Virus record (IMG/VR): IMGVR_UViG_3300042562_000248 | Span: 1-42,548 of that record | Origin: a virus | Strand: one strand, 5' to 3' | DNA length: 42,548 nucleotides | In this document: one piece after another, positions 75-22,813 of the stretch | Layout: every line of letters begins with the position of its first letter | Numbering within the stretch: the stretch's first letter is position 1 | The notes under the pieces: model-generated | Told to the model about the DNA's origin: nothing | Seen by the model: the letters and a program-made list of their open reading frames with translations, nothing else | Database searches by the model: none | Translations under genes and position numbers: made by a program

Positions 75-275
75 TTATTTATCTATATGAATTAAAAAGC
101 TAATTTTTCTTTTTATTGTAGGATATTTTTCTATTAACCACAAACTTAAATCGTCTTTCTCTGAGTCATCGATATGAAACTCTGCATAAGTGTGTATTTT
201 ATGACCTTTAAATATTTCTTGTAATTTTTCTGGAATTTCCGATAATTTAATTACTGATTTTGTTATTGTTTTCAT
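75..275 (-). CDS. Hypothetical small protein (66 aa)
   Basis: The protein starts MKTITKSVIKLSEIPEK. I chose the ATG at 275-273 because the longer reading frame (start at 347) runs 68 bases back into the gene at 280-540, while this start gives the 4-base spacing usual in the operon. It contains a charged, acidic middle (HIDDSEKDDLSLW). I do not recognise a family. It is one of a tight chain of minus-strand early-type genes. Confidence 0.6.
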   Translation of the reverse strand: MKTITKSVIKLSEIPEKLQEIFKGHKIHTYAEFHIDDSEKDDLSLWLIEKYPTIKRKISFLIHIDK

Positions 276-279
276 AATA

Positions 280-540
280 TTATTTATTTTTAAATTGTTC
301 AAACCATTCCTCAAAGTCATTATACACAGGTGGCATATCTTTTTCAAAAATTTTACATTGTCTTGATTGTTTAAAAGATTCTCTTAAATCTCTCTCACTA
401 TAACTTCTTTCTTTTATCAAATCACCATCTGTATCTAATAAAAAGTCAATATCATTTTCTGATAGTAATTTTGAATGTCTAAGTTGTTGTAAATTCCCTT
501 CATAATTACTAGTATTTCCTTTTTCGTTTATCTGTTTCAT
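280..540 (-). CDS. Small phage protein with C-terminal EEWFEQFKNK motif (86 aa)
   Basis: The protein starts MKQINEKGNTSNYEG. It has the segment YSERDLRESFKQSRQ and ends FEEWFEQFKNK. This layout (a D/E-D-L-x-E-x-F-K segment followed by EWFEQFK at the C-terminus) is shared with the proteins at 544-903 and 1570-1779, so the three are paralogues that probably arose by tandem duplication. Homologues of this kind are common in Bacteroidota phages; no function is known to me. It lies 3 bases after the stop of the upstream gene in a polycistronic run. Confidence 0.7.
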   Translation of the reverse strand: MKQINEKGNTSNYEGNLQQLRHSKLLSENDIDFLLDTDGDLIKERSYSERDLRESFKQSRQCKIFEKDMPPVYNDFEEWFEQFKNK

Positions 541-543
541 AAC

Positions 544-903
544 TTATTTGTTTTTAAACTTAATACACCACTCAAATAAATTTAAAGTAGTTTCGGCATT
601 TTGCCATTCTATATAATTTTTTTCTGTTGAAATATACAATGAATTTGGACAAGTTCTATTACTATTAGGATTGAAGTGTTTCCATAATTCTTCTGCAACA
701 ATTCCGTAATATGGTTTTTGGAAAGTGTTAAAATAATATTCCTCTGCTCTTTCTGTATCTTCACTTGCTTCCCAATTAGCATCAATTATCTGTTGCTTTT
801 CCATTTCTTTGGCTTGTTTAATTTCAAGAGCTTCTCCTTTTGTAAATTGCAAACCTGCATCAATAAGTTTTTCTTCTAACCATTCTACTGCTGTCTGTTT
901 CAT
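544..903 (-). CDS. Small phage protein, MKQTAVEW...W-x-x-KFKNK family (119 aa)
   Basis: I chose the ATG at 903-901 (protein start MKQTAVEWLEEKLIDAG) because this start is characteristic of the family. An ATG 21 bases further upstream would add MKNKKQI. The body has a charged helix (KGEALEIKQAKEMEKQQ), then ASEDTERAEEYYF, and ends LFEWCIKFKNK, a degenerate version of the EWFEQFK ending of its paralogues. The start overlaps the 3' end of the gene at 860-1075 by 44 bases in another frame. Function unknown. Confidence 0.7.
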   Translation of the reverse strand: MKQTAVEWLEEKLIDAGLQFTKGEALEIKQAKEMEKQQIIDANWEASEDTERAEEYYFNTFQKPYYGIVAEELWKHFNPNSNRTCPNSLYISTEKNYIEWQNAETTLNLFEWCIKFKNK

Positions 904-1075
904 AATTTGCTTTTTGTTTTTCATATTGTTTTATTAAATCTAATTTGTTTTCTAAATTCATTCTTACTATTGCTTTTAATAGTTTTAAGACGTTATCTCT
1001 TCCTCCTAGTATATTTATATCACTTTGTGAAACTCGTGTCTGTAATCGAATGCTTTTGACTTCTGAAGGTTTCAT
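860..1075 (-). CDS. Hypothetical small protein with MKPSEV start (71 aa)
   Basis: The start is the ATG at 1075-1073, which overlaps the TGA of the upstream gene (ATGA). A longer frame to 1159 would overlap the upstream gene by 88 bases and is less likely. From MKPSEV onward it resembles the second half of the protein at 2472-2762 (MEPSEV): both continue with an R-x-x-TR segment, a G-x-R-x-N/D segment and a final IKQ(W/Y)E. This suggests paralogy, with the first half lost or never present here. Its 3' part overlaps the 544-903 gene. Function unknown. Confidence 0.55.
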   Translation of the reverse strand: MKPSEVKSIRLQTRVSQSDINILGGRDNVLKLLKAIVRMNLENKLDLIKQYEKQKANYETDSSRMVRRKTY

Positions 1076-1332
1076 AGATATATAATCAGGTTGTCGTCCT
1101 GTTCCTCGATGTCGTACTTGCCACATGTGGTGTTGTTGATCGATAACGAAAACTTCCACGTGTTGTGGATCTTTGAGGCTTTCCTTATTTTAACCGTGGT
1201 GTCCACAGTTGGCCGTTTAAATATGACCTTATCCCACTTTATAATTGCAATAAATTCGTCCTTAAACCAGTCGTTCTTTGTACTCAAGTCAAACTGAGTA
1301 CCTGTCATTTTTCTGTCGTATAGTGTAATCAT
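1072..1332 (-). CDS. Hypothetical small protein (86 aa)
   Basis: The protein starts MITLYDRKMTGTQFDLST and ends IEEQDDNLIIYL. Its start overlaps the stop of the upstream gene (TGATG at 1330-1334) and its stop overlaps the next start (ATGA at 1072-1075). This strongly supports both ends and suggests translational coupling. It has alternating hydrophobic beta-strand patterns and no recognisable motif. Family unknown. Confidence 0.65.
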   Translation of the reverse strand: MITLYDRKMTGTQFDLSTKNDWFKDEFIAIIKWDKVIFKRPTVDTTVKIRKASKIHNTWKFSLSINNTTCGKYDIEEQDDNLIIYL

Positions 1333-1568
1333 CAGAATAGTTTTTTAATGTCGTTGTTATTCATTTCTAATAATTTAGTCAATGCGTGATCTGTTACCGC
1401 ATTCGTATCTAAAATCTTAAACAGAACCTCTATCTTTCTGTGTGTCAGCCTTCTACCTTGCGAGAAAAGTTTTACTCGGTTTAGACTGTCCGTGAATTGT
1501 TGTTGTTGCTCTGGGGTTGTTATTGGATCACCGTATTGGGTTGTCCAACGTCCGTTTAAAATTTTCAT
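1332..1568 (-). CDS. Hypothetical small protein (78 aa)
   Basis: The protein starts MKILNGRWTTQYGDPITT. I chose this ATG at 1568-1566 because an alternative eight codons upstream would overlap the 1570-1779 gene by 23 bases. The stop is interlocked with the start of the next gene (TGATG). The middle is basic (FSQGRRLTHRKIEVLFKIL) and the rest is helical. I do not recognise a family; a nucleic-acid-binding role would be a guess. Confidence 0.65.
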   Translation of the reverse strand: MKILNGRWTTQYGDPITTPEQQQQFTDSLNRVKLFSQGRRLTHRKIEVLFKILDTNAVTDHALTKLLEMNNNDIKKLF

Positions 1569-1569
1569 A

Positions 1570-1779
1570 TTATTTCTTTTTAAATTGTTCAAACCATTCT
1601 CCGAAAGTTAAATTGTTGTTATTGTAGCAATTAGTAAATCCACTTTTAAAGGCTTCTTCTAAATCATCTTCATTATAACTATTTTCTTCTTGCCATTTAG
1701 CACCAATTTGAAATAATGTAATATCTCTTTCGCAAATGCAAATTCTTTCAGTTGCTTTCTCTAATGTTTCTTGTATCAT
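1570..1779 (-). CDS. Small phage protein with EWFEQFKKK C-terminus (69 aa)
   Basis: The protein starts MIQETLEKATERICICE. It contains GAKWQEENSYNEDDLEEAF and ends GEWFEQFKKK. The GAKWQEE, YxEDDLxEAF and EWFEQFK blocks are the signature of a short-protein family frequent in Bacteroidota phages and are shared with the paralogues at 280-540 and 544-903. Its start overlaps the stop of the upstream gene (ATGA at 1776-1779). Function unknown. Confidence 0.7.
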   Translation of the reverse strand: MIQETLEKATERICICERDITLFQIGAKWQEENSYNEDDLEEAFKSGFTNCYNNNNLTFGEWFEQFKKK

Positions 1780-1991
1780 AATATCTTTATAAATTTACCG
1801 TTGTTATCTATTAATGTTGTTAGTTGAAATTGCTTATCGAGGTGCTCTAGAACAATATCTAGATTTCCCATATTGAAAACCATTGAAAAGTTGTTTATAT
1901 CAATGTTTGGCTTTAGACTATTGTAGTACTCGTGGAACCATTCCAAACGGTACTGCCCACTATTTCGCATCTTTATATATTCTGTCTTCAT
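1776..1991 (-). CDS. Hypothetical small protein (71 aa)
   Basis: The protein starts MKTEYIKMRNSGQYRLEW and ends LIDNNGKFIKIL. The stop overlaps the next start as ATGA, and the start lies inside the 3' end of the upstream gene (32-base overlap). No motif or family is recognised; the composition is mixed and soluble. Confidence 0.6.
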   Translation of the reverse strand: MKTEYIKMRNSGQYRLEWFHEYYNSLKPNIDINNFSMVFNMGNLDIVLEHLDKQFQLTTLIDNNGKFIKIL

Positions 1992-2157
1992 ATATCTTAT
2001 TTTTTTGGTGATACGTTAGCACATACCATGATTGTTGTAATTCCATTGTTATGCTATCTGTTGCATATATTCTCTGTAGTTTATGGTACGGCAGCTCCTG
2101 ATACCAATAGTCCAATGCCTCTTCCATAAATGTTGTGTAATCATTAAATCTGCTCAT
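1960..2157 (-). CDS. Hypothetical small protein (65 aa)
   Basis: The protein starts MSRFNDYTTFMEEALDYW and is rich in Tyr, Trp and Gln (for example ELQQSWYVLTYHQKN). It overlaps both neighbours (14 bases upstream, 32 downstream), as is typical for this operon. No family recognised. Confidence 0.6.
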   Translation of the reverse strand: MSRFNDYTTFMEEALDYWYQELPYHKLQRIYATDSITMELQQSWYVLTYHQKNKIYEDRIYKDAK

Positions 2158-2341
2158 CGCTTAAAAATTTATAGTACTCATCGTACAAGTCGTTAAAAAT
2201 ATGTCTGTAATTATCTCGATACCTTAAGTCTCCGTTGTCGTCCGTAGTGTATAGTTTCCACTCGTCATTGTCTACCATAAGGAGCAAGTCCTTATGTGCT
2301 AGTTCGCATGACTTCTCTATTACGTTAATTGTTATTTCCAT
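2144..2341 (-). CDS. Hypothetical acidic small protein (65 aa)
   Basis: The protein starts MEITINVIEKSCELAHKD and is strongly acidic and Tyr-rich toward the end (NDLYDEYYKFLSDEQI). Its start overlaps the end of the 47-codon gene upstream by 10 bases. Acidic early phage proteins of this size are often DNA mimics or host-takeover factors, but nothing here proves that. Confidence 0.6.
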   Translation of the reverse strand: MEITINVIEKSCELAHKDLLLMVDNDEWKLYTTDDNGDLRYRDNYRHIFNDLYDEYYKFLSDEQI

Positions 2342-2475
2342 ATTCTTTTAAAGTTATGATTATACTTAAACGTTTTACCGTCCATTTTTACACTATAACC
2401 ATAGTACTCTGAGTTTAACATGAAGTCTCTTCCCTTAGCAATATTCATTCTAAAGTACTGATCGTCGTATATCAT
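2332..2475 (-). CDS. Hypothetical small protein (47 aa)
   Basis: This reading frame starts MIYDDQYFRMNIAKGRDF and ends YNHNFKRIWK. The start overlaps the upstream stop as ATGA (2472-2475), and the stop lies 10 bases inside the next gene. It fills what would otherwise be the only 130-base gap in the operon, which supports it as a real gene. It contains the segment SEYYGYSVKMDGKTFKY. No family recognised. Confidence 0.6.
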   Translation of the reverse strand: MIYDDQYFRMNIAKGRDFMLNSEYYGYSVKMDGKTFKYNHNFKRIWK

Positions 2476-2762
2476 TGCGCGCATAACTCCCATTGTTTTA
2501 TCTTATTAATATTCCTTCCGTTTAGTCCTAACCTACCACATATAAACTTGGCCAACACCTTGTTACCTCGCGTGCCGTTGTCTATTTCCCTCGTGCCAAT
2601 CCTGAAGACTACCTCTGAAGGCTCCATTCCTAAGACTCTGTTGCAAAACTTTGAGTCCTGACCTAAATACAATCTATTGTGTTTAGTATTTGTACTTACT
2701 ATTAAAGTCCACTCGTGACCGAATCCGTAACTACCTCTTGTAACTTCTATTGTTGCTTTCAT
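2472..2762 (-). CDS. Hypothetical protein with MEPSEV motif (96 aa)
   Basis: The protein starts MKATIEVTRGSYGFGHEW. The first half is beta-rich (WTLIVSTNTKHNRLYLG). The second half (residues about 46-96) carries MEPSEVVFRIGTR and ends KIKQWELCAQ, and resembles the 71-residue protein at 860-1075. Stop and start are interlocked with both neighbours (ATGA type). Function unknown; the paralogy suggests early-region expansion by duplication. Confidence 0.6.
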   Translation of the reverse strand: MKATIEVTRGSYGFGHEWTLIVSTNTKHNRLYLGQDSKFCNRVLGMEPSEVVFRIGTREIDNGTRGNKVLAKFICGRLGLNGRNINKIKQWELCAQ

Positions 2763-3076
2763 ATAAAATATTTATTGTTAAATTTTTGTCGTTGTCCTGT
2801 GAAGTTTGGGCTATAAACCAACATGTCAAACTCATCACTACTTATAGCGATACAAGTCTGTGTCATTACAGTACTTATCTTTTCAAAGTCAGATATTACC
2901 TTAGATGCAAGTTTATAGTCCGTTGACAGTTCTAAAACTGCCGTTGGTTCGGGTACTCCGTTATATTCTCCGTTCTCTATTTTAAAACTCACTACCTTGT
3001 AGCCTTTGTGCTCCATGAAGTATTGATAAATGTTCTCTACCGCGTTATTGTTTAATCCGATGTTTACTGTTATCAT
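2759..3076 (-). CDS. Hypothetical small protein (105 aa)
   Basis: The protein starts MITVNIGLNNNAVENIYQ and ends QRQKFNNKYFI. Alternating strand and helix patterns suggest a small alpha/beta fold (residues 25-60 strand-rich, VVSFKIENGEY). Its stop overlaps the following ATG by 4 bases and its first base is shared with the stop of the upstream gene. No family recognised. Confidence 0.65.
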   Translation of the reverse strand: MITVNIGLNNNAVENIYQYFMEHKGYKVVSFKIENGEYNGVPEPTAVLELSTDYKLASKVISDFEKISTVMTQTCIAISSDEFDMLVYSPNFTGQRQKFNNKYFI

Positions 3077-3372
3077 TATAATGTTTTATATAAAGTTTTT
3101 AATTGTTGGATAATACTAGAATAAGCCTCTATCTGGGCTTGTTTTTCTTTCGTTAGTCTCTTAATACCGCTTTGGTGCTTTATTGTCTTAATCTCGTTGT
3201 CTATAGCCTTGGCGACTGCCTGACGCTTTGAAGACTGAAACGTATAAACCTCCCAGGTTCGGTTGATGTAATTACATTTAGCCGTTGCTATTAAAATTCC
3301 GTTGTCATCGTATAGTTCCGACGTGTGACTAAACCCTGACCTGCTACTGTTGTATGTGTTTTTAAATTCCAT
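3076..3372 (-). CDS. Hypothetical small phage protein (98 aa)
   Basis: I chose the ATG at 3372-3370 (protein start MEFKNTYNSSRSGFSHTS); one codon upstream is a GTG that could also start it. Residues 20-45 (LYDDNGILIATAKCNYINR) form a strand-turn-strand typical of small phage proteins. The last 45 residues are a basic, Lys/Gln-rich helix. It follows the 20-codon membrane peptide gene by 2 bases. Function unknown. Confidence 0.65.
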   Translation of the reverse strand: MEFKNTYNSSRSGFSHTSELYDDNGILIATAKCNYINRTWEVYTFQSSKRQAVAKAIDNEIKTIKHQSGIKRLTKEKQAQIEAYSSIIQQLKTLYKTL

Positions 3373-3374
3373 CA

Positions 3375-3437
3375 CTATAAATTATTTAAGATTATTACTA
3401 GAACCGTTACTAAGATTGTAAATTTAATTCTGCCCAT
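3375..3437 (-). CDS. Putative single-span membrane micropeptide (20 aa)
   Basis: The reading frame MGRIKFTILVTVLVIILNNL has two basic residues followed by about 12 uninterrupted hydrophobic residues, so it would insert as one short transmembrane helix. It sits between the 24-residue membrane peptide gene (4 bases away) and the 98-residue gene (2 bases away). It is supported by this tight packing and by the hydrophobic pattern, but it is so short that it could be chance. Confidence 0.4.
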   Translation of the reverse strand: MGRIKFTILVTVLVIILNNL

Positions 3438-3441
3438 GTTG

Positions 3442-3516
3442 TTATGAGTTTACTATGCAATAAGCATATGTTAATATTAATAAAATTAGTCCGATTATTG
3501 TCGTTGTTGTCTTCAT
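3442..3516 (-). CDS. Putative single-span membrane micropeptide (24 aa)
   Basis: The frame starts MKTTTTIIGLILLILTYAYC and ends IVNS. It has one hydrophobic segment (residues 7-22) after a Thr-rich start. Its ATG overlaps the TGA of the upstream gene (ATGA at 3513-3516). Together with the next 20-residue peptide it forms a pair of tiny membrane proteins. Candidate roles seen for such phage peptides include membrane perturbation or superinfection immunity, but this is inference only. Confidence 0.45.
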   Translation of the reverse strand: MKTTTTIIGLILLILTYAYCIVNS

Positions 3517-3683
3517 TTAAATGTTCCTTGGGTTATGTCCTTATGGTTTACTACTAGTTCTGTGAGGCGTTCTAAACTTCCCGCCTCTATCGTGGCATTG
3601 CCAACGTTGGCACGGTATATAGTCCTTTCCGTGCCCTTGTACACTTGTGTGTAGGTTGTGTATTCTATCTCTCTTGCTCGCAT
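3513..3683 (-). CDS. Hypothetical small protein (56 aa)
   Basis: The frame starts MRAREIEYTTYTQVYKGT and ends KDITQGTFK. The first two thirds are strand-rich with alternating Tyr and Thr, then ANVGNATIEAGSLERLTEL. It overlaps the upstream gene by 19 bases and the downstream ATG by 4. No family recognised. Confidence 0.55.
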   Translation of the reverse strand: MRAREIEYTTYTQVYKGTERTIYRANVGNATIEAGSLERLTELVVNHKDITQGTFK

Positions 3684-3808
3684 AAAAAAATGTATTTAGA
3701 ATATAAAATGTTCTTTTCACTCTGTGTTAACTTATTCCAATGTCCGTATAGTTTGGGGTTAATTGGGTGCCCGTCTATACTATATAAAATTTCTTTGTTA
3801 GTACTCAT
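3665..3808 (-). CDS. Hypothetical small protein (47 aa)
   Basis: The frame starts MSTNKEILYSIDGHPINP and continues LYGHWNKLTQSEKNILYSKY. It overlaps the upstream gene by 11 bases and the downstream gene by 19. The packing matches the rest of the operon. Function unknown. Confidence 0.55.
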   Translation of the reverse strand: MSTNKEILYSIDGHPINPKLYGHWNKLTQSEKNILYSKYIFLCEQER

Positions 3809-3977
3809 TGTATTTTATTTTTGATATTAATATTTCAACGTTTCTTGCGTAGATGCTATACTCTATATCGTTTGTAATATAGTCAGTATTGCAACATAAG
3901 TCCTCGTAATGGTCTAGCGTTTCTTTGCGTTCTTGTTTAGTCATTCTAAGGATGTCCTTTTGTGTTAGTGTTGTCAT
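3798..3977 (-). CDS. Hypothetical small protein (59 aa)
   Basis: The frame starts MTTLTQKDILRMTKQERK and is a charged helical protein with a CC pair (DLCCNTDYI) and a basic-hydrophobic end (ILISKIKYNEY). The start is one base after the upstream stop. No family recognised. Confidence 0.55.
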   Translation of the reverse strand: MTTLTQKDILRMTKQERKETLDHYEDLCCNTDYITNDIEYSIYARNVEILISKIKYNEY

Positions 3978-3978
3978 C

Positions 3979-4146
3979 TTAATATTGTGTTAGTGCGTAT
4001 CTCTTTGTATTGCACATTTCAAAGGCTCTGTCATGCTCATCATAACAAACCCATTCTCCATTTTCTAATCTATCAACGCTACCTACAAATACTTTATCAA
4101 TATAAATCAGGTAGTATCCAGCGTGTTTTTTAATTACTTTCTTCAT
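3979..4146 (-). CDS. Hypothetical small protein (55 aa)
   Basis: The frame starts MKKVIKKHAGYYLIYIDK. The pattern HAGYYLIYIDKVFVGSVDR followed by GEWVCYDEHDRA looks like a small antiparallel sheet. It starts one base after the stop of the 62-codon gene. Family unknown. Confidence 0.6.
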   Translation of the reverse strand: MKKVIKKHAGYYLIYIDKVFVGSVDRLENGEWVCYDEHDRAFEMCNTKRYALTQY

Positions 4147-4147
4147 C

Positions 4148-4336
4148 TTAATATGTTTTAAGTTGTGAAGATAAGCCCCCTAGCTTACCTATATAATAAA
4201 TAAATTCATTCGTCTCTATTCTTACAATTCCCTCATCGGATTTGCTTACATTTAAAATGTTGTCGAATTTATCAGTTCGATCCTTATAAAAATTATATAG
4301 ATCTTTTTGACTCTTAGTCATTAAAATGTTATCCAT
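4148..4336 (-). CDS. First gene of the minus-strand early operon, hypothetical (62 aa)
   Basis: The protein starts MDNILMTKSQKDLYNFYK and ends KLGGLSSQLKTY; the first half is helical and charged, the second strand-rich. It is the first gene after the structured leader: its ATG is 15 bases after the end of the hammerhead ribozyme (4351-4403) and 61 bases after the predicted cleavage point. Expression of the whole operon should therefore start from a self-cleaved leader. Function unknown. Confidence 0.65.
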   Translation of the reverse strand: MDNILMTKSQKDLYNFYKDRTDKFDNILNVSKSDEGIVRIETNEFIYYIGKLGGLSSQLKTY

Positions 4337-4350
4337 ATTAATATGTTGTT

Positions 4351-4403
4351 AGTGTTTCGCTATTCTGTAGCTCATCAGCATGGATAACGCATCCATGTAC
4401 ACT
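4351..4403 (-). ncRNA. Hammerhead ribozyme (type III) in the early-operon leader
   Basis: Read on the minus strand, all parts of the hammerhead core are present in order. Stem III strand AGUGU is at 4403-4399, with U at 4399 followed by A at 4398 (site GUA, cleavage predicted between 4398 and 4397). Stem I is a perfect 7-bp hairpin CAUGGAU/AUCCAUG with loop GCGUU (4397-4379). CUGAUGA is at 4378-4372. Stem II is GCUA/UAGC with loop CAGAA (4371-4359). GAAA is at 4358-4355, and its last A plus CACU closes stem III (ACACU with AGUGU, 5 bp). Stem III is the open stem, so this is type III. The match to the known consensus is complete; activity is inferred. Confidence 0.9.
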
Positions 4404-4528
4404 TTACACGTCTATCTCTATTTAAGTAGCTCGTGGTCTTCGGTTTTTATACCTGAGTAGACTTACCCGCTTTATAGTGTCTTCCACTTCCGCCACTTTT
4501 TAAATCTGTGGTCTCGATTTCAACACTG

Positions 4529-4536
4529 CAAACATA
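4529..4536 (-). promoter_or_regulatory. Candidate early promoter -7 box (TATGTTTG)
   Basis: On the minus strand this reads TATGTTTG followed by C, matching the Bacteroidota -7 consensus TAnnTTTG. A TTG lies 16 bases further upstream (4555-4553). It would start a transcript with about 120 bases of leader before the hammerhead cleavage site and then the 22-gene minus-strand operon. It is the only good match I see between 4337 and 5200 on this strand. Confidence 0.5.
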
Positions 4537-6034: not shown

Positions 6035-6649
6035 ATGAAAATATGCAAAAGGTGTAGTACTTTAAAAGAGTTATCTGAATTTAATATTAACTTAAAAATA
6101 AAAAGTGGATTAGGATCTAATTGTGCTAGTTGTAGAAAAGAAATAAATAAAAAATACAACGACGATAGTATTGAAAAAAGAAAACAATACTATTTAGACA
6201 ATAAAGAACTTAAAAAACAATACGCTAAAGAATATAGATCAAATAATTTAGATAAAATTAAGCAATACGAAAAAAATAATAGATATAAGTCTTACAAAAG
6301 AAAAGTAGTTTTAGCTAAACAAAGAAGAATAGATGATCCTTTATATAAATTTAGTAAAAACACAAGATCTTTAATTTATAAGTCATTTAAAAAATGTAAT
6401 GATAGTTTTAAAAAAAATACTAACACAGAAAATATTCTTGGATGTAGTATTAAAGAATTTCAGCTATACTTAGAGAATAAATTTACATATGGAATGTCTT
6501 TAGATAATTATGGAAAATGGCACATAGATCATATTATTCCAATATCATCAGCTAAAACAGAAGAAGATGTTATAAGATTAAACCATTACACAAACTTACA
6601 GCCGTTATGGGCTAAAGATAACTGGATGAAAGGAAGTAAAATACTCTAA
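6035..6649 (+). CDS. HNH endonuclease with N-terminal zinc ribbon (204 aa)
   Basis: A DNA endonuclease of the HNH superfamily, of the free-standing type common in phages. A zinc ribbon at C4, C7, C30 and C33 is followed by a long basic helical linker (residues 40-110, many K, Y and N). The catalytic part is near the end: WHIDHIIPISSAK with D165/H166, N187 in YTNLQPLW, and N196 in AKDN, which is the common H-to-N variant of the last HNH residue. The size is normal for the family. It has its own promoter, the kissing-hairpin leader and strongly AT-rich codon use. Likely a homing-type or genome-competition nuclease; packaging-linked HNH proteins exist, but it is far from the terminase. Confidence 0.9.
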   Translation: MKICKRCSTLKELSEFNINLKIKSGLGSNCASCRKEINKKYNDDSIEKRKQYYLDNKELKKQYAKEYRSNNLDKIKQYEKNNRYKSYKRKVVLAKQRRIDDPLYKFSKNTRSLIYKSFKKCNDSFKKNTNTENILGCSIKEFQLYLENKFTYGMSLDNYGKWHIDHIIPISSAKTEEDVIRLNHYTNLQPLWAKDNWMKGSKIL

Positions 6650-7634: not shown

Positions 7635-9224
7635 ATGAATCCAAAAGACATCATATTTGATGAAGAGGCAAGAGGTAAATTAATAAATGGAATTACCACA
7701 ATGTCCAAAGCTGTTAAAAGTACATTAGGTCCTAGAGGAAAAACTGTCTTAATTGAGAGCCCTAATCATACTCATGGAATAACAATTACAAAAGATGGAA
7801 TTACAGTTTGTAAATCAATTTCTTTACTTGACCCAGTTGAAAATCTTGCGGTTAAGATTATGCGTGAAGCAGCTGACCGTACAGCTACTAGTGCAGGCGA
7901 TGGGACCACAACCTCTATCGTGCTAGCAGAAGCTATTGTATTGCAGGGACAGGAGCTGTTGAATGACAAGCACAACGTAACAGAGGTTATCAGACATATG
8001 AACGACATCACTGATGTGATAGTTGGTAGGTTGGAGAAGAGGTCTAAGAAGGTTAGCGGCAAGACATTGAAGAATGTGGCGTCTATATCGGCGAATAATG
8101 ACTCTGAGCTTGGTAGTATTATAGCTAATACGTATGAGCAGGTAGGTAAGGATGGTATTGTGACCATTGAGGACTCACAGACATCGGAGACTTACACGAG
8201 TGTGACCAACGGTATTAAGATTGATAGGGGATATACGTCTAACATGTTTGTTAATAACCATAAGAAGGATGAGTGCATCTTGGATGATGTGTTGGTGCTG
8301 GTTACGGATCAGGAGATTAGTAATATATTGTCGATTGAGAAGGTTTTGAAGCCGATTATTCAGCAGCAGAAGAAGTTATTGATTATTGGGACGTGTAGTC
8401 AGAACGTTATCAACACGTTGGCCGCCAATGTGGTGCAGAATAACCTAAAGCTGTGTAATATTATACCTCCTCAGTTTGGGTACAAGAGAAATGAGCTGAT
8501 GAGTGATATCGCGTTGGCTGTGGGGGCCAAGTACTTCTCAGAGAGTACGGGTGATGACTTGAGCTTGATTGATATTGAGGATTTGGGTAAAGCAGACAAG
8601 GTAATTGTTGGTAGAGATAGCACTGTGATTGTACGTTCAGAGGTTGCGAGTGATGAGATCAACGAGAGAGTGTCTCAGCTGTGGGATGCACACAACCTGT
8701 CTGACAGGAAGGGTGATAAGGAGTTTATTAAGCAGCGTATTGCCAGTTTGACAGGCGGTATAGGTGTTATATATGTTGGAGGTAACTCGGACCTTGAGCA
8801 GAAGGAGCGTAAGGACAGGGTTGATGACGCTGTGTGTGCGGTTAGGTCTGCGTTAGAGGAGGGTATCCTGCCAGGAGGTGGATTGGCACTGTTTAGTGAG
8901 TCTTACAGCCTTATTGCTGATGCTGATGATACGATTAATGATATTAGTGCTAACAAGTACGTGGCGATGCATATTATGGCGCGCGCGATACAATCTCCTC
9001 TGCTACAGATCATGACCAATGCTGGGTTGGATGGATATGAGATCATGGAGTTTGCGTTCACGAAGGACTGGGGATACGATGTTAAGAATGAGGAGTATGG
9101 TGACATGTTCAAGATGGGTATTATAGATCCACTGAAGGTAACGAAGAACGCGCTGAAGAACGCGGTGAGTGTTGCCACTACGATACTGAGCACGAATGCA
9201 ATTATAACAATAACACGAGCGTAA
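7635..9224 (+). CDS. groEL: Phage-encoded 60-kDa chaperonin GroEL
   Basis: ATP-dependent group I chaperonin, probably a double-ring cage for folding phage structural proteins in the cytoplasm. Conserved parts visible are LGPRGK (31-36), GDGTTTS (88-94, nucleotide loop), the catalytic aspartate in VDDAV (D398, same number as in E. coli) and LPGGG just after. At 529 residues it lacks the Gly-Met tail; it ends ITITRA soon after the last conserved strand. The first 75 codons are about 32% GC, and the rest jumps to about 45-57% from roughly base 7860, so the gene looks mosaic. It forms an operon with groES, whose ATG is 2 bases after the stop. Confidence 0.95.
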   Translation: MNPKDIIFDEEARGKLINGITTMSKAVKSTLGPRGKTVLIESPNHTHGITITKDGITVCKSISLLDPVENLAVKIMREAADRTATSAGDGTTTSIVLAEAIVLQGQELLNDKHNVTEVIRHMNDITDVIVGRLEKRSKKVSGKTLKNVASISANNDSELGSIIANTYEQVGKDGIVTIEDSQTSETYTSVTNGIKIDRGYTSNMFVNNHKKDECILDDVLVLVTDQEISNILSIEKVLKPIIQQQKKLLIIGTCSQNVINTLAANVVQNNLKLCNIIPPQFGYKRNELMSDIALAVGAKYFSESTGDDLSLIDIEDLGKADKVIVGRDSTVIVRSEVASDEINERVSQLWDAHNLSDRKGDKEFIKQRIASLTGGIGVIYVGGNSDLEQKERKDRVDDAVCAVRSALEEGILPGGGLALFSESYSLIADADDTINDISANKYVAMHIMARAIQSPLLQIMTNAGLDGYEIMEFAFTKDWGYDVKNEEYGDMFKMGIIDPLKVTKNALKNAVSVATTILSTNAIITITRA

Positions 9225-9226
9225 AT

Positions 9227-9490
9227 ATGACGGCAATTCCCATAAACAAATACATTCTCATCACAACGATTGATGAGCAGATAAAAACAGAGTCAGGGTT
9301 GCTACTTACGGGTAGTGATGCTGAGAAGTTTAGATATAAGAAGGGATTGGTGGTAAAACCAGGCACCAATGTAGAGGTAATCAAGGAAAATGACATGATA
9401 TACTACGACAAGGGCGCTGGTTATACGATGCTGATAGATAATGTGCCTTATACAATTATTAGAGAGGCTGATGTGGTGGTAGTCCTCTAG
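9227..9490 (+). CDS. groES: Phage-encoded co-chaperonin GroES
   Basis: An 87-residue protein with the GroES fold pattern: INKYILITTIDEQ at the start, a mobile-loop region ESGLLLTGSDA (residues 22-32), KGLVVKPG, then NDMIYYDKGAGYTMLID, and the usual ending READVVVVL. It would cap the phage GroEL. The length is slightly shorter than the bacterial protein (about 95). It sits 2 bases after groEL. Its last 32 bases overlap the 3' end of the opposite-strand regulator gene. Confidence 0.88.
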   Translation: MTAIPINKYILITTIDEQIKTESGLLLTGSDAEKFRYKKGLVVKPGTNVEVIKENDMIYYDKGAGYTMLIDNVPYTIIREADVVVVL

Positions 9491-10019
9491 ACTGCCTGTA
9501 CTTTATTACATGAGGCTGTTGCTGGTAGATATCTTCTTCTATTCGCTTCAGCCTTCTTTTTTCGGCATGGTTTCGGTTCATATTCTTGATAGTACGCTTG
9601 TACATATTGTCTGTGTAGGACACGTTCTTGTTGAAGAGTGTATTGTTCTGCCTGGTCTCTGATATTGGCTCCTCACCATTAAGTTTTTTATAGACACTTA
9701 CCATCATTGACTTACCCTTGCGCGATAGTTCGTACAGTGCCTTCTCCATACCTATTCGTGGTCTCCACTTTATGATCCATCCAGCTTCGGTCATTCTATT
9801 GAATCTATGATTGTCCCAACTGAAGATACACTCGAACTCTTGGAACTGAGGTCTCGTAAATAGTTTTTCAGAGTATAGATAGCATATCATATCGAAGTCC
9901 TGTGAGCTTAGTTCATACTTGTGTTTGGCCCAGTATTTTACTACCTTGTAGTATTTTAGGTAGTCGTTTCCAGGCTCTGTTCTGTTGTAGTTTTTTCTTA
10001 AATTTACGTTGAAATCCAT
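9459..10019 (-). CDS. Putative winged-helix transcriptional regulator (186 aa)
   Basis: The protein starts MDFNVNLRKNYNRTEPGN. I chose the ATG at 10019-10017 because it lies 22 bases after a minus-strand -7 box (10049-10042), whereas the longer frame would start upstream of that box. The middle matches a MarR/PadR-like winged helix: ELSSQDFDMICYLYSEKL, then RFNRMTEAGWIIKWR, then a wing ALYELSRKGKSMMVSVYK. A basic tail follows. Similar proteins occur in Bacteroidota phages next to the late region. Its divergent position at the border of the late genes suggests it controls the switch to late expression and its own gene. Confidence 0.65.
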   Translation of the reverse strand: MDFNVNLRKNYNRTEPGNDYLKYYKVVKYWAKHKYELSSQDFDMICYLYSEKLFTRPQFQEFECIFSWDNHRFNRMTEAGWIIKWRPRIGMEKALYELSRKGKSMMVSVYKKLNGEEPISETRQNNTLFNKNVSYTDNMYKRTIKNMNRNHAEKRRLKRIEEDIYQQQPHVIKYRQSRGLPPHQPL

Positions 10020-10033
10020 TAGATTATATTTTA

Positions 10034-10049
10034 TATCTTTGCAAAGATA
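10034..10049. promoter_or_regulatory. Palindromic divergent promoter: two back-to-back -7 boxes
   Basis: TATCTTTGCAAAGATA is a perfect 16-base palindrome. Each half is an exact TAnnTTTG -7 box, one per strand. Plus transcription leads to the ATG at 10067 (25 bases after the box) and minus transcription to the ATG at 10019 (22 bases after the box). The two transcripts would start on opposite sides, each inside the other promoter, so firing should be mutually exclusive. The palindrome could also be an operator for a dimeric protein such as the divergent regulator. Confidence 0.7.
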
Positions 10050-10066
10050 AAACAATTATTTATATT

Positions 10067-15481: not shown

Positions 15482-18070
15482 ATGACAAAAATAAGCAGAT
15501 ACGTTATTGACGAAAAGGTTACTGGTTCAGACAAGTGGATTGGATCAGATGCGCAGACTCAGTACACAACAAAGAATTTTACTCCAACAAAGTTAGCTGT
15601 TTATTTTAACGAGAACCAGGTAATAGATATTGGGACTCCTATACGTTACAGATACGATATTCTTGAGGTTGGTGATACTAGATTGCCAGGTACCATAACA
15701 TTTAATCCGCAGGTAGGAACACCATACAGTCTTTCTAGCATATCTTCATTTATACTTAGTAAGTACACGCTTAAAGGTAATGATGTTACCCAGTACCTTA
15801 ACTTCTTAATTGGAAGTAATGTATTGATTTACAAGGCTGACGATATAAATATATTTGGGCTTTATAAGGTGGTTAGTCTTGTAGAGAATATAGACGAACC
15901 TGACTTCTTTGATGTGGTAGTTTCTTATACTACTGGTAATGGATCTATAGTTGAAGATAAGGACTACCTAGTATCTTTAATAGATATTCCAGGTGGAGAT
16001 ATTCCAACAAAGACATCTGACTTAATTAACGATGGTGAGGATGGAATAAATCCTTTTATTACATTAGTGGATATTCCAACACCTAATTTAAACGATGTAC
16101 TGCTAGAAGGAAATATATCTGAATTAGACGCTAAGATAGGCGAGTTATATTTATACGATGGACCAACTGGAGATTATGCTAAAATAAGCGTACAAGACGG
16201 TTTTTTTGGAATAAAAAGAGCTAGCGGAGCTACTATGTTTGCAGTTGATAATGGAAATAGTATATCACTTAATAACGGAACAGCTAACGCTTTAATAGTT
16301 AATTCACTTGCCACAAGTAGAACTTACACATTACCTGATGCAACTGGAACAATTGCTTTGACTAGTGACATTCCCGCACAAGGTTTAACTTCTGTAGGTT
16401 TATCAATGCCTGTAGCTTTTAACGTTTCAAATAGTCCTTTAACTTCAGATGGTACAATAGCAGTTAGTGCAGCAGGTACTTCATCGCAATATATAAGAGG
16501 AGATGGACAACTTGCAACTTTACCAAGCGGCGGTGGTGGTGGTTCTTCTGTTAATTATTATTTAAATGGTAGTATTGCTGCATCGGTTGCAACTTATAAG
16601 CAGATGTCAAACACAGCCATCATTGGAGCAGGTACAGATTTTACATTAACAGGTAATGGATTAATATCACAATTTTTAACCGATTTGGGAAATCCAAACA
16701 GAACAGAAATACCTGGAGGAGCTTGGAACTTTGAAATGTTTTTTTCAATGTCCTCAAATGGCGGTACACCTGCTTTCTATGTACAACTGTTAAAATATGA
16801 TGGTGCAACTTTTACAAGTATTGCATCAAGCTCTGCGGTGCCTGAAAATATAACAGGTGGTACAAGTATTGATTTATATTTAACGTCGTTAGCAGTGCCT
16901 ACAACTCCATTATTAATTACCGATAGACTTGCGATTAGAGTTTATATCATTAATAATTCAGGGGGTAGAACAGCAACATTACACACAGAGAATAGTCATT
17001 TATGTGAAATTATAACTACATTTTCAGGTGGTGTAACTTCATTAAATGGATTGACTACAAATACACAATATTTAGCAGTAGGAACAAGCGGAACAGACTT
17101 TAACATTAATAGTTTAGTTGATACACATACATTCAATTTACCAACAGCATCAGCTACAAATAGAGGTGCATTAAGCACAACAGATTGGAGTTCATTTAAT
17201 GGGAAATTTACTTTACCTGCATTAACTTCAGGTTCTGTTTTATTTTCAGATGGTACAACTATTGCACAAGATAATAGTAACTTCTTTTATAACGATTCTA
17301 ATAATAGATTAGGAATTGGAACAGCAATTCCTACTACAACCTTAGACATTAGGACGCCAAGTCAAGGATATGTTACAATAGGAGGTGCTGATGGTAGAAC
17401 AATTTCAGCATTTAATAACGCAGGAGCGACAGCTGTTATGAATTTTGGAGCTGCAAATTTTAATGGATTTATGTATGGTTCGAGTTGGTTCGATTCTGCC
17501 ACAAATACGCAATCAGTTAGATTATCATCAACAACTGTAACGCTTTGGTCAGCATCAATTGAAAGATTAAGAGTTACTAATAATGGCAATATACTCATTG
17601 GAACTACAACAGACAACGGAGGTAAACTTCAAATCAAAGCACCAGGAGCATTATCAACTGATATAGCGTTACGAGTTAGGAATAGTGCTGATACTGCTGA
17701 CTTGATGACTATGAATGGTGGTGGTACTTTAAATGTAGCTGGTTTAGGAACATTTGGAGGAAATATATCAGTTTCAAAAGTAAATGCAAGTTTAATTTTA
17801 AGCACAGGTTCTGACCAATTTTTAACTTTATTGGCAGGTAATGGGGCAACACAAAAAATAACAGCAACTTATAATTTAGAATTAAATGCTACTTTTGGTA
17901 ATATATTACTTAATCCAAGTGGTAATGTAGGAATAGGAACAACAAGTCCTACAGCTAAGCTACACGTTGTGGGACTGGTAGATTACGCAACAAACGCTTT
18001 AGCTATTGCAGGAGGTTTAACAGTAGGAGCTTTTTATCATACAGCGGGAGTTGTAAAAGTAGTAATATAA
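15482..18070 (+). CDS. Tail fibre or appendage protein (862 aa)
   Basis: The protein starts MTKISRYVIDEKVTGSDK. Residues 1-40 (KISRY..D..VTGSDKWIGSD....TKNFT) form an anchoring module shared with the 219-residue protein at 18641. A beta-rich body contains 'RTYTLPDATGTIAL' (about residue 280), a Gly-rich hinge SGGGGGSS (about 351) and then receptor-type modules. Near the end the fibre repeats (L/V)GIGT..PT..LD(I/V) occur twice (RLGIGTAIPTTTLDI near 611, NVGIGTTSPTAKLHV near 819). Probably trimeric and surface exposed. Confidence 0.75.
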   Translation: MTKISRYVIDEKVTGSDKWIGSDAQTQYTTKNFTPTKLAVYFNENQVIDIGTPIRYRYDILEVGDTRLPGTITFNPQVGTPYSLSSISSFILSKYTLKGNDVTQYLNFLIGSNVLIYKADDINIFGLYKVVSLVENIDEPDFFDVVVSYTTGNGSIVEDKDYLVSLIDIPGGDIPTKTSDLINDGEDGINPFITLVDIPTPNLNDVLLEGNISELDAKIGELYLYDGPTGDYAKISVQDGFFGIKRASGATMFAVDNGNSISLNNGTANALIVNSLATSRTYTLPDATGTIALTSDIPAQGLTSVGLSMPVAFNVSNSPLTSDGTIAVSAAGTSSQYIRGDGQLATLPSGGGGGSSVNYYLNGSIAASVATYKQMSNTAIIGAGTDFTLTGNGLISQFLTDLGNPNRTEIPGGAWNFEMFFSMSSNGGTPAFYVQLLKYDGATFTSIASSSAVPENITGGTSIDLYLTSLAVPTTPLLITDRLAIRVYIINNSGGRTATLHTENSHLCEIITTFSGGVTSLNGLTTNTQYLAVGTSGTDFNINSLVDTHTFNLPTASATNRGALSTTDWSSFNGKFTLPALTSGSVLFSDGTTIAQDNSNFFYNDSNNRLGIGTAIPTTTLDIRTPSQGYVTIGGADGRTISAFNNAGATAVMNFGAANFNGFMYGSSWFDSATNTQSVRLSSTTVTLWSASIERLRVTNNGNILIGTTTDNGGKLQIKAPGALSTDIALRVRNSADTADLMTMNGGGTLNVAGLGTFGGNISVSKVNASLILSTGSDQFLTLLAGNGATQKITATYNLELNATFGNILLNPSGNVGIGTTSPTAKLHVVGLVDYATNALAIAGGLTVGAFYHTAGVVKVVI

Positions 18071-18085
18071 ATAAATAAATAAATT

Positions 18086-18388
18086 ATGGGATTATTAGTA
18101 AGTGCTACGGCAGAAAAAAAGATTTTGATTAAAGGTACTGAAATAGAGTTACCAAGTGTTTATGTTCGTTTAGAATATGCAGGTAGAGCAAACGGAGTAA
18201 CGTTAGAAATTGCAGCGGCTACTTATGCAAGTCACGAAGCATACAAAGACGGAGCAGGAGCTATCTTTACTGATGTTCAACAAGGTGCGTTTTCTGTTGA
18301 ATTAGTAGATGCACAAATGCAAGATTTATCAAGTGCGGAATTGTACTCTAAATTAGCTTTTGAGCAGTTGGGATATTTAGTTGAGTAA
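18086..18388 (+). CDS. Hypothetical fibre-associated protein (100 aa)
   Basis: The protein starts MGLLVSATAEKKILIKGT. It is predicted beta-rich, with EIELPSVYVRLEYAGRANG, and has a helical acidic end (DLSSAELYSKLAFEQLGY). It lies between two fibre-type genes and is preceded by an A/T-rich leader (ATAAATAAATAAATT) and no Shine-Dalgarno. It may be an adaptor for the fibres. Family not recognised. Confidence 0.6.
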   Translation: MGLLVSATAEKKILIKGTEIELPSVYVRLEYAGRANGVTLEIAAATYASHEAYKDGAGAIFTDVQQGAFSVELVDAQMQDLSSAELYSKLAFEQLGYLVE

Positions 18389-20589: not shown

Positions 20590-22813
20590 TATATATAGGA
20601 TAGTCCAAGACCACGTACCTAAGAGTGTTATTGTAGTAAAGAACAAGAGCAAGACTTGGGAGTACGGCTATAATGAGAAGTATGATATGGTGGTTATATC
20701 TAAAGATGGAACCATTGGAGATATTTATAGTGTTAGCGGATTATTAATTGCACTACCATCAACCCCAGACGATGTTTATAAAAGAGATAGCAAGAAAGAG
20801 AATCAGTATTGGAAACCATCTGAGTACCCAAGGGAGCTTAGTAATATCAAGACTATATTCAACTGGCATACTATGCCTAAGAATTTTAAGGATGAGTGGG
20901 TTGATTATATAGAGGGAGAGTTTGATAGAAGGGATCACGGATTTTTCTTTATGAACAATGGCGTTAAAACTTATATCACAGGTTCTCATTATATGTACTT
21001 GCAGTGGACTAAGATTGATATTGGACTTCCAGACTACCGAGAAGCAAACAGGATATACTTTATATTTTGGGAAGCCTGTAAGGCTGATAACCGTTCATTT
21101 GGTATGGTATACCTAAAGATTAGACGTTCTGGATTCTCGTTTATGGGATCTAATGAGTTATCTAATACAGGGACACTTGCTAAGGATGCAAGACTTGGTA
21201 TACTATCAAAGACTGGTAATGATGCTAAGACAATGTTTACCAATAAGGTGGTTCCTATTATCAGCAATTACCCATTCTTCTTCAAGCCTATCCAGGATGG
21301 TATGGATAAACCAAAGACAGAACTTGCGTTTAGAGTTCCTGCGGCTAAGATTACCAAGAAGAATATGTACGAAAGTGCAGAGTCCGACATTAGAGGTCTT
21401 GATACCACGATTGACTGGAAGAACACGGCTGACAATAGTTATGATGGTGAGAAATTACTATTACTCGTACATGACGAATCGGGCAAATGGATTAAGCCAG
21501 ATAACATCTTAAATAACTGGCGTGTAACAAAGACCTGTCTTAGATTAGGTTCTAAGATTATTGGAAAGTGTATGATGGGTTCAACACCTAACGCGCTTGA
21601 AAAGGGAGGGGCTAACTTTAAGAAGTTATACGAAGAATCAAATGTAAGCACACGTAATGCCAATGGTCAGACAAAGTCTGGTATGTACTCTTTGTATATA
21701 CCAATGGAGTGGAACTTCGAGGGTTATATAGATAGATATGGAATGCCAGTATTCAGAAAGCCAGAAAAACCAGTTATGGGGATTGATGGTCAGATGATCT
21801 CTAATGGCGCCATTGATTATTGGGAGAATGAGGTTGCTTCATTGAAGAGTGATGCTGATGCTCTTAACGAGTTCTATAGACAGTTCTCAAGAACAGAGTC
21901 TCATGCCTTCAGAGACGAGAGCAAGTCATCAATATTCAACCTAACAAAGATATACCAGCAGATTGACTATAACGACTCCTTAATCAAGGATAGAGTACTT
22001 ACACGAGGCTCGTTCAGCTGGTTAAACGGAGAGAAGGATACCAAGGTAGTATGGACTCCAGATCCAAGGGGCAGGTTTAACGTATCGTGGATACCAGAGC
22101 GTAACCTACAGAATGTTATCATTAATAAGAATGGAATGAAGTATCCTGGGAATGATCATATTGGTGCATTTGGATGTGATCCATACGATATATCAGGTAC
22201 AGTAGGCGGTGGAGGATCTAATGGTTCTCTTCATGGACTTACTAAATTTAATATGGATAATGCACCTAGTAATCACTTCTTCTTGGAGTATATCGCAAGA
22301 CCACAGACGGCAGAGATATTCTTTGAGGAGGTACTGATGGCATGTGTATTTTACGGTATGCCTATCTTGGTTGAGAATAACAAACCAAGGCTGCTATATC
22401 ATTTCAAGAACAGAGGCTATAGAGGATTTTCTATGAATAGACCAGATAAGCACTATAATAACCTCTCTAAGACAGAGAAAGAGCTTGGAGGTATTCCTAA
22501 CTCTTCTGAAGATGTTAAGCAGTCTCACGCGTCTGCGATTGAGTCATATATTGAGAAGTATGTAGGACTTGACTTAGAAGGTACTTACAGGGATTCTGAT
22601 GAGATGGGTTCAATGTACTTCACACGTACAATAAACGAATGGTCAAGGTTTGATATAAACAACAGAACGAAGTTTGATGCTGCAATTAGCTCAGGATTAG
22701 CTATAATGGCTAATCAAAAAAATGTGTATGCACAAGTCAAAAAAGAATCGAAAATTATCTTTAACTTTGCAAAGTATAATAATAGCGGAACACATAGCGA
22801 AATAATAAGATAA
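20567..22813 (+). CDS. terL: Terminase large subunit (748 aa)
   Basis: The DNA-packaging motor ATPase and nuclease. The ATPase part shows a divergent Walker A (KIRRSGFSFM, residues 184-193) as in crAss-like terminases, and a Walker B with LLLLVHDES (D303/E304). The C-terminal RNase H-type nuclease shows an acidic residue at D538 in FGCDPYD and another at D704 in TKFDAAISSG. The length fits crAss-like TerL proteins. It overlaps the TerS candidate upstream and abuts the portal gene. A consensus -7 box lies inside its last 50 bases. Confidence 0.93.
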   Translation: MQKEDQNSIYRIVQDHVPKSVIVVKNKSKTWEYGYNEKYDMVVISKDGTIGDIYSVSGLLIALPSTPDDVYKRDSKKENQYWKPSEYPRELSNIKTIFNWHTMPKNFKDEWVDYIEGEFDRRDHGFFFMNNGVKTYITGSHYMYLQWTKIDIGLPDYREANRIYFIFWEACKADNRSFGMVYLKIRRSGFSFMGSNELSNTGTLAKDARLGILSKTGNDAKTMFTNKVVPIISNYPFFFKPIQDGMDKPKTELAFRVPAAKITKKNMYESAESDIRGLDTTIDWKNTADNSYDGEKLLLLVHDESGKWIKPDNILNNWRVTKTCLRLGSKIIGKCMMGSTPNALEKGGANFKKLYEESNVSTRNANGQTKSGMYSLYIPMEWNFEGYIDRYGMPVFRKPEKPVMGIDGQMISNGAIDYWENEVASLKSDADALNEFYRQFSRTESHAFRDESKSSIFNLTKIYQQIDYNDSLIKDRVLTRGSFSWLNGEKDTKVVWTPDPRGRFNVSWIPERNLQNVIINKNGMKYPGNDHIGAFGCDPYDISGTVGGGGSNGSLHGLTKFNMDNAPSNHFFLEYIARPQTAEIFFEEVLMACVFYGMPILVENNKPRLLYHFKNRGYRGFSMNRPDKHYNNLSKTEKELGGIPNSSEDVKQSHASAIESYIEKYVGLDLEGTYRDSDEMGSMYFTRTINEWSRFDINNRTKFDAAISSGLAIMANQKNVYAQVKKESKIIFNFAKYNNSGTHSEIIR
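22762..22769 (+). promoter_or_regulatory. Internal promoter -7 box TAACTTTG with palindrome
   Basis: It matches TAnnTTTG and is part of the 12-base palindrome ACTTTGCAAAGT (22764-22775). It lies in the coding end of terL, 44 bases before the portal ATG at 22814, so the head genes could have their own transcript. Being inside a gene, it could also be chance. Confidence 0.4.

Follow-up and report, generated by a model that had tools for sequence, protein, structure and literature searches.

The window, by which we mean the whole stretch of DNA that was analyzed, is a virus record of 42,548 bases. Its minus strand carries an early operon, and immediately upstream of the first early gene lie a hammerhead ribozyme, a structured leader RNA and a putative promoter element:

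75 to 4336, minus strand: early operon as far as it lies in the window, 19 head-to-tail ORFs of at least 40 aa (from the ORF list)
4148 to 4336, minus strand: first early gene, 62 aa (from the ORF list; no PHROGs or Pfam match)
4351 to 4403, minus strand: type III hammerhead ribozyme, whole element (from a descriptor, RF00008, our own model R1 and covariation with 10 relatives)
4399 to 4403, minus strand: 5' strand of hammerhead stem III, AGUGU (from the sequence)
4398, minus strand: hammerhead A17, the H17 position being A (from the sequence)
4397 to 4398, minus strand: predicted cleavage site GUA^C (from hammerhead geometry; cleavage inferred)
4404 to 4515, minus strand: conserved structured leader RNA with P1, P2, a P3 hairpin, a pseudoknot and P5 (from alignments A6 and A7)
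4529 to 4536, minus strand: TATGTTTG, which matches the Bacteroidota -7 promoter box TAnnTTTG (from the sequence)

The operon is truncated by the window edge at base 1. The original prediction described 22 genes, a number that cannot be confirmed because the window cuts the operon off. The 62-aa first gene, when used as bait for relatives, gave no matches. Promoter activity of TATGTTTG is inferred from its sequence; a -7 box is also found in several related leaders.

The window terminase is 73% identical to that of MW202828.1 (a spring-water podovirus) and 45% identical to that of Flavobacterium phage elemo, with more remote relatives in Cellulophaga, Maribacter and Tenacibaculum phages. A tblastn search with the terminase produced 87 hits (E <= 1e-5), which belong to Flavobacterium, Cellulophaga, Tenacibaculum and Maribacter phages and to MW202828.1. 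The collection searched includes Bacteroides phage crAss001, whose host is not among these hits; thus, a terminase-based assignment to Crassvirales is not supported. Relatives whose records carry a taxonomy are placed in Elemovirus, Pachyviridae and Pervagoviridae, not in Crassvirales. With these as its nearest named relatives, the phage is "crAss-like," as it had been called, just in a loose sense (looser profile kinship is left aside). A megablast search of 25 kb against phage records found no match. Between the early region and groEL is a gene for an Endonuclease VII/HNH-like protein (6035-6649, plus; phrog_1035, E 6.9e-23). The phage-encoded GroEL (7635-9224, plus; phrog_5725, E 1.6e-134) is directly followed by a GroES-like ORF (9227-9490, plus), and MW202828.1 and elemoE have the same pair of genes. 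A 198-aa ORF (9459-10055, minus) is situated inside this plus-strand operon, and MW202828.1 has an oppositely oriented "repressor protein" next to groES in a comparable place.

Read from 4403 to 4351 on the minus strand, the hammerhead consists of AGUGU, the A preceding the predicted cut, stem I (CAUGGAU/AUCCAUG) with loop GCGUU, CUGAUGA, stem II (GCUA/UAGC) with loop CAGAA, and a 3' part in which GAA is followed by A15.1 and CACU, closing stem III. Stems III, I and II have 5, 7 and 4 bp. All core nucleotides are present (C3 U G A N G A9, G12 A13 A14, the A15.1-U16.1 pair and H17), and the topology is that of type III, with stem III open and stems I and II closed. The three helices around the core are further supported by compensatory changes, in an alignment selected partly for pairing. 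The original prediction of a complete minus-strand hammerhead at this place, with a cut between 4398 and 4397 that lies 61 nt 5' of the ATG at 4336, is borne out in each of its coordinates; that the RNA is cut there remains an inference.

The exact hammerhead structure is contained in the centroid fold, in which stem I is longer by one G-U pair, and when the element is folded by itself, its pairs have probabilities of 0.68-1.0. In longer transcripts, the predicted folds prefer other pairings: the probability of stem III falls to 0.07-0.25 when the leader is included, and that of stem I is 0.09 in the longest RNA, to which 90 nt of the gene were added. Because of these competing pairs, co-transcriptional folding would matter. 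By folding energy, the element on its own does not stand out (z -1.16), and energy is therefore left out of the evidence. Nine nucleotides in loop I and stem I, GUUAUCCAU (4380-4388, minus), are complementary to the start of the first gene, AUGGAUAAC (4328-4336), and this pairing competes with stem I in predicted folds. A switch based on the complementarity was considered and dropped, because the complement is missing from the relatives inspected.

No Rfam model reaches its own gathering score. The type III model RF00008, to which viroid and satellite hammerheads belong, scores 23.9 bits against a cut-off of 48.5, with model positions 5-50 of 54 aligned. The window copy resembles viroid and satellite hammerheads in core, open stem, strand order and the loops that close stems I and II, but unlike them resides in the transcript of a DNA phage. 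The E-value is 0.0013 for a 66-nt search and ~0.8 if scaled by length to the whole window, which is arithmetic and not a separate search. Given this scaled value and the sub-threshold score, Rfam alone is not decisive. The original prediction had named the lack of a covariance-model hit above threshold as one of its possible refutations, and for the curated models this has formally come about. Our model R1, which includes the element itself, scores it at 73.4 bits.

Chance was assessed separately. The pattern CTGATGAR..CGAAAC has a single occurrence in the window and is absent from all 100 shuffles. A full descriptor, which covers all three hammerhead topologies and makes stem demands, produces one strong match in the window and three matches in 2.55 Mb of shuffled window. 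We also used a set of 100 sequences (1.52 Mb) composed of the window and loci fetched via their GroEL gene, not via the ribozyme. The real core has 33 strong matches in this set, whereas 24 permuted cores searched under identical stem demands average 0.17. All 33 are on the strand opposite GroEL, which is the early-operon strand. Because the shuffles are nearly empty and the permuted cores fall so far below the real one, a chance origin of the window hammerhead is excluded.

Type III copies are found in the early leader of six metagenomic relatives (L003, L004, L005, L024, L025 and L026), and the cultured Flavobacterium phage elemoE (NC_055854, also L103) has one at 18099-18151 on the minus strand, ~15 nt before gp59. 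The absence of homologs in related phages, which would also have refuted the original prediction, is thus clearly contradicted. An alignment of 11 type III copies is paired in 98.3% of its pair cells, both sides have changed in 12 of 16 pairs, and compensatory changes occur in all three stems; when the partner is slid by 1-3 columns, pairing falls to 24-42%. Both this alignment and the type I alignment described below were picked partly by pairing, since the descriptor demanded stems, so their pairing and covariation counts are favorable by design. The evidence from strand, junctions and loops is free of this bias. Loops I and II, between which a tertiary contact would be expected in a hammerhead, are kept across relatives.

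The covariance models R1 and R2 also found copies outside their training sets (for R1, for example, L056:2833 with 55 bits and L091:6494 with 40 bits; for R2, L080:6971, two in L017, L009:7953 and L077:5217), and both matched cultured phages. As far as sequence comparison can tell, it is the relatives, and not the Rfam score, that settle the identity of this predicted hammerhead, and the Rfam models overlook the group at their cut-offs. Matches in L021, L009 (17664), L022, L037, L048 and L087 have weak stems or unusual cores and were rejected as chance. In five contigs (L031, L055, L056, L057 and L096), type III copies lie at gene junctions, not in the early leader, and each is immediately preceded by a hairpin with which the upstream message would be capped at its 3' end.

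The leader RNA is ~110-125 nt long, and the stretch is conserved with L003, L004, L005, L246, L240 and elemoE. Five of its 16 pairs are changed on both sides. In the five closest leaders, every cell of P1, the P3 hairpin, the P3-loop pseudoknot and P5 is paired (100%), whereas slid partners are paired in 30-41%, and no shuffle reaches the covariation score. This covariation rests on few sequences, namely five. The leader has no match in Rfam. Model R3 places it immediately before a type III hammerhead at 13 different loci (the window, L003, L004, L005, L246, L337, L103, L240, L025, L024, L247, L220 and L230), L337 among them having been obtained independently, through the terminase; L243 is the contig of L003 again and was left out. 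An R3 match in L007 (E 0.08) is noise, and a leader pattern in L244 is apparently due to chance, as the sequence around it is rich in G+C and lacks the remainder of the leader.

Related contigs carry type I hammerheads farther down the early operon, at gene junctions. In 15 aligned copies, pairing is 100%, and 13 of 15 pairs have double-sided changes. When viral contigs were scanned with one type I pattern, at least 120 loci matched; together, the loci found with this pattern and with the leader pattern hold at least 168 type I and at least 14 type III copies, counts in which a few contigs occur twice. An internal array copy in L164 matches the type I and RAGATH-1 models only weakly, with scores under both cut-offs (20 bits for RF00163, cut-off 34; 24.1 bits for RF03152, cut-off 56.3). 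The cultured phages NC_055854 and NC_062741 carry both hammerhead types, and NC_021789 carries type I. No second hammerhead was found in the window, where relaxed stems gave just weak chance-like folds. With one copy and an incomplete operon, the window therefore does not qualify as an array of more than one hammerhead per transcript; its relatives do.

Several regularities are evident among the matches listed. All 46 non-redundant loci with multiple copies have them on a single strand, and spacing in the arrays is between a few hundred and ~1000 nt. Of the 14 mixed arrays, 13 have their type III copy at the 5' end; by simple arithmetic, a random order would produce this about once in 10,000 cases or less often. 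The stop codon of the upstream gene ends at position 6, 10, 1 or 0 of the ribozyme in 105 of 159 type I copies: at position 6 in 43 (UAA within the stem I strand GGUUAA), at position 10 in 25 (UGA of the CUGA core), at position 1 in 22 and at position 0 in 15. The next ATG is 13-18 nt 3' of the ribozyme in 90 of 154 copies. Also among these matches, type I copies have an A at -7 (99%) and at +6 (97%), and loop II is UNAAU-like in most of them, none of which was part of the search pattern. These conserved features would point to a tertiary contact and, by inference, to selection on ribozyme function. The largest array listed has eight type I copies in 5.8 kb (L331, 534-4571, plus); this sequence is filed in an Aliivibrio bin and is probably a phage contig. 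A relative of the window terminase, 26-74% identical, is present in 27 of the 50 pattern contigs among the matches listed, which indicates that the arrays span a broad clade.

At least one hammerhead copy is present in 22 of 50 GroEL-linked contigs and in 7 of 20 terminase-linked contigs over 26 kb, and both figures are lower bounds because many contigs are fragments. Our own models detected no hammerhead above noise in MW202828.1, despite its closely related TerL, nor was any found above noise in the Callevirus, Gundelvirus, Panino, phi13:2 and crAss001 genomes tested. The trait looks patchy, as if gained and lost often.

We consider it likely, with a probability of roughly 0.8, that the element is a type III hammerhead acting in cis, with a single cut in the early-operon transcript between the structured leader and the first early gene. 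What is observed is the motif, its conservation and covariation, its placement by strand and junction, and its link to the leader RNA. Hammerhead cleavage leaves a 2',3'-cyclic phosphate on the upstream piece and a 5'-hydroxyl on the downstream piece. By this known chemistry, inferred cleavage in the window would free a leader RNA of ~110-125 nt with a 2',3'-cyclic-phosphate end, and the early mRNA would then begin with a 5'-hydroxyl right at the stem I hairpin. The original prediction that the ribozyme would remove the 5' leader of the operon is thus supported, again with cleavage inferred. It was incomplete in that it foresaw neither the arrays of the relatives nor that the leader removed is itself a conserved structured RNA.

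In relatives, cuts by type I ribozymes at later junctions would divide the remaining operon into messages of one gene's length or of a few genes, and the upstream pieces would end in the ribozyme's own hairpins. After cleavage, the downstream mRNA would keep the type III hairpins at its 5' end, and the upstream mRNA would keep the type I hairpins at its 3' end. A type III copy in the leader combined with type I copies at junctions might therefore place structure on both message ends, and a gain in message stability is a further inference, as are processing itself and any effect on expression. The most likely reading is that the ribozyme frees the leader RNA and that, in relatives, short messages are cut from the operon by the arrays; these phages would thus fragment their own transcripts at early-gene boundaries with built-in ribozymes. 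Because the window holds a single copy, the array model rests on the relatives. We hold only tentatively, and with somewhat less than even confidence, the wider view that a widespread group of Bacteroidota-type phages has a ribozyme-punctuated early operon, in which type III releases a new pseudoknotted small RNA from the 5' end and type I, with stop codons embedded in it, cuts at gene boundaries, so that RNA alone would carry out messenger processing. The lack of cleavage data, the sub-threshold Rfam scores, the competing folds of long transcripts and the patchiness of the trait all count against the main explanation, in which the hammerhead cuts the early-operon transcript.

It remains possible, although we would not favor it, that the ribozyme is active and that its main product is the leader RNA, so that the hammerhead matures the 3' end of a phage small RNA and effects on mRNA are secondary. 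The position of the R3 leader directly 5' of type III in 13 loci fits such a role, as do its covarying helices and pseudoknot. There is also a precedent in the theta (HDV-like) ribozymes of gut phages, which have been proposed to process tRNA ends (Kienbeck et al. 2024, PMC10879173). These too are self-cleaving phage RNAs that process the end of a structured RNA, but they are of another ribozyme class and are located at tRNAs, not in an early mRNA leader. However, no such leader accompanies the internal type I copies or the gene-junction type III copies in L031, L055, L057 and L096. Moreover, L164 (805-1011, plus) retains a degenerate leader (R3 E 3e-4), followed by ..GUCUUAACCAUAAAA..AUG, with no hammerhead core behind it; it has apparently lost the ribozyme and kept the ribozyme's 3' part and the 5'-UTR.

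Cleavage could instead be gated by translation, if a ribosome finishing the upstream gene covers the ribozyme and allows it to fold only when translation is low; arrays would then be switches. The stops that end at positions 6, 10 and 1 of listed type I copies agree with this proposal. However, overlap of elements is usual in compact phage genomes, GGTTAA happens to hold TAA, and the proposal cannot apply to the type III copy in the window, which has no upstream gene. We consider it unlikely. Very unlikely is a retrozyme-like process in which pairs of hammerheads release fragments that are then circularized. Array spacing among the matches listed and the predicted 5'-hydroxyl and 2',3'-cyclic-phosphate ends would suit it, and Cellulophaga phage phi19:3 encodes an RNA ligase family protein; but what would be released are ordinary early genes, only one copy lies in the window, and circular or spliced products were sought in prophage arrays and not found (Perreault et al. 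2011, PMC3088659). The phi19:3 gene (NC_021789, L104, 752-1678), carried besides the hammerhead, may encode a partner for repair or circularization. That the element is an inactive relic or a chance fold is scarcely tenable despite the score under the Rfam cut-off and the competing folds in longer RNA, given the intact core, the compensatory changes and conserved loops across relatives, and the strand and junction bias.

Clustered hammerheads that flank genes were described previously in prophages, and transcript processing was proposed; three arrays cleaved in vitro, and the A. tumefaciens set did so also in E. coli (PMC3088659). As in the relatives of the window, several hammerheads per transcript flank genes there, and long phage RNA is proposed to yield shorter mRNAs. 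Those arrays differ in that they reside in prophages of other bacteria and flank varied genes, whereas the present group comprises Bacteroidota-type phages with type III followed by type I in an early operon, regular stop and ATG spacing, and a conserved leader. A 2023 paper mentions an earlier-described enrichment of hammerheads near Mu-like phage genes and calls the reason for the phage association unknown (PMC10085705). These reports already cover both the ribozyme class and the notion of arrays in phages. Literature on hammerheads with crAss, Flavobacterium phage or Crassvirales did not describe the system, with subscription journals mostly outside the search. As far as the searched literature shows, the phage group, the III-then-I order, the embedded stops and the linked leader RNA are new; a prior description is not excluded.

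The role of natural hammerheads in phages has been open since their discovery there. The present element occurs in cultured, sequenced phages, namely elemoE, which grows on Flavobacterium sp. BAL314, and phi19:3. Coupled with the strict placement and the linked leader, this makes its function directly testable by end mapping and mutation. In phi19:3, a type I ribozyme (21769-21817) is at the gp051/gp050 junction, and in elemoE one (16304-16361) lies between gp64 and gp66; the placement rule holds in both. An annotated plus-strand ORF, gp65 (16289-16396), overlies the elemoE ribozyme and is probably not a gene.
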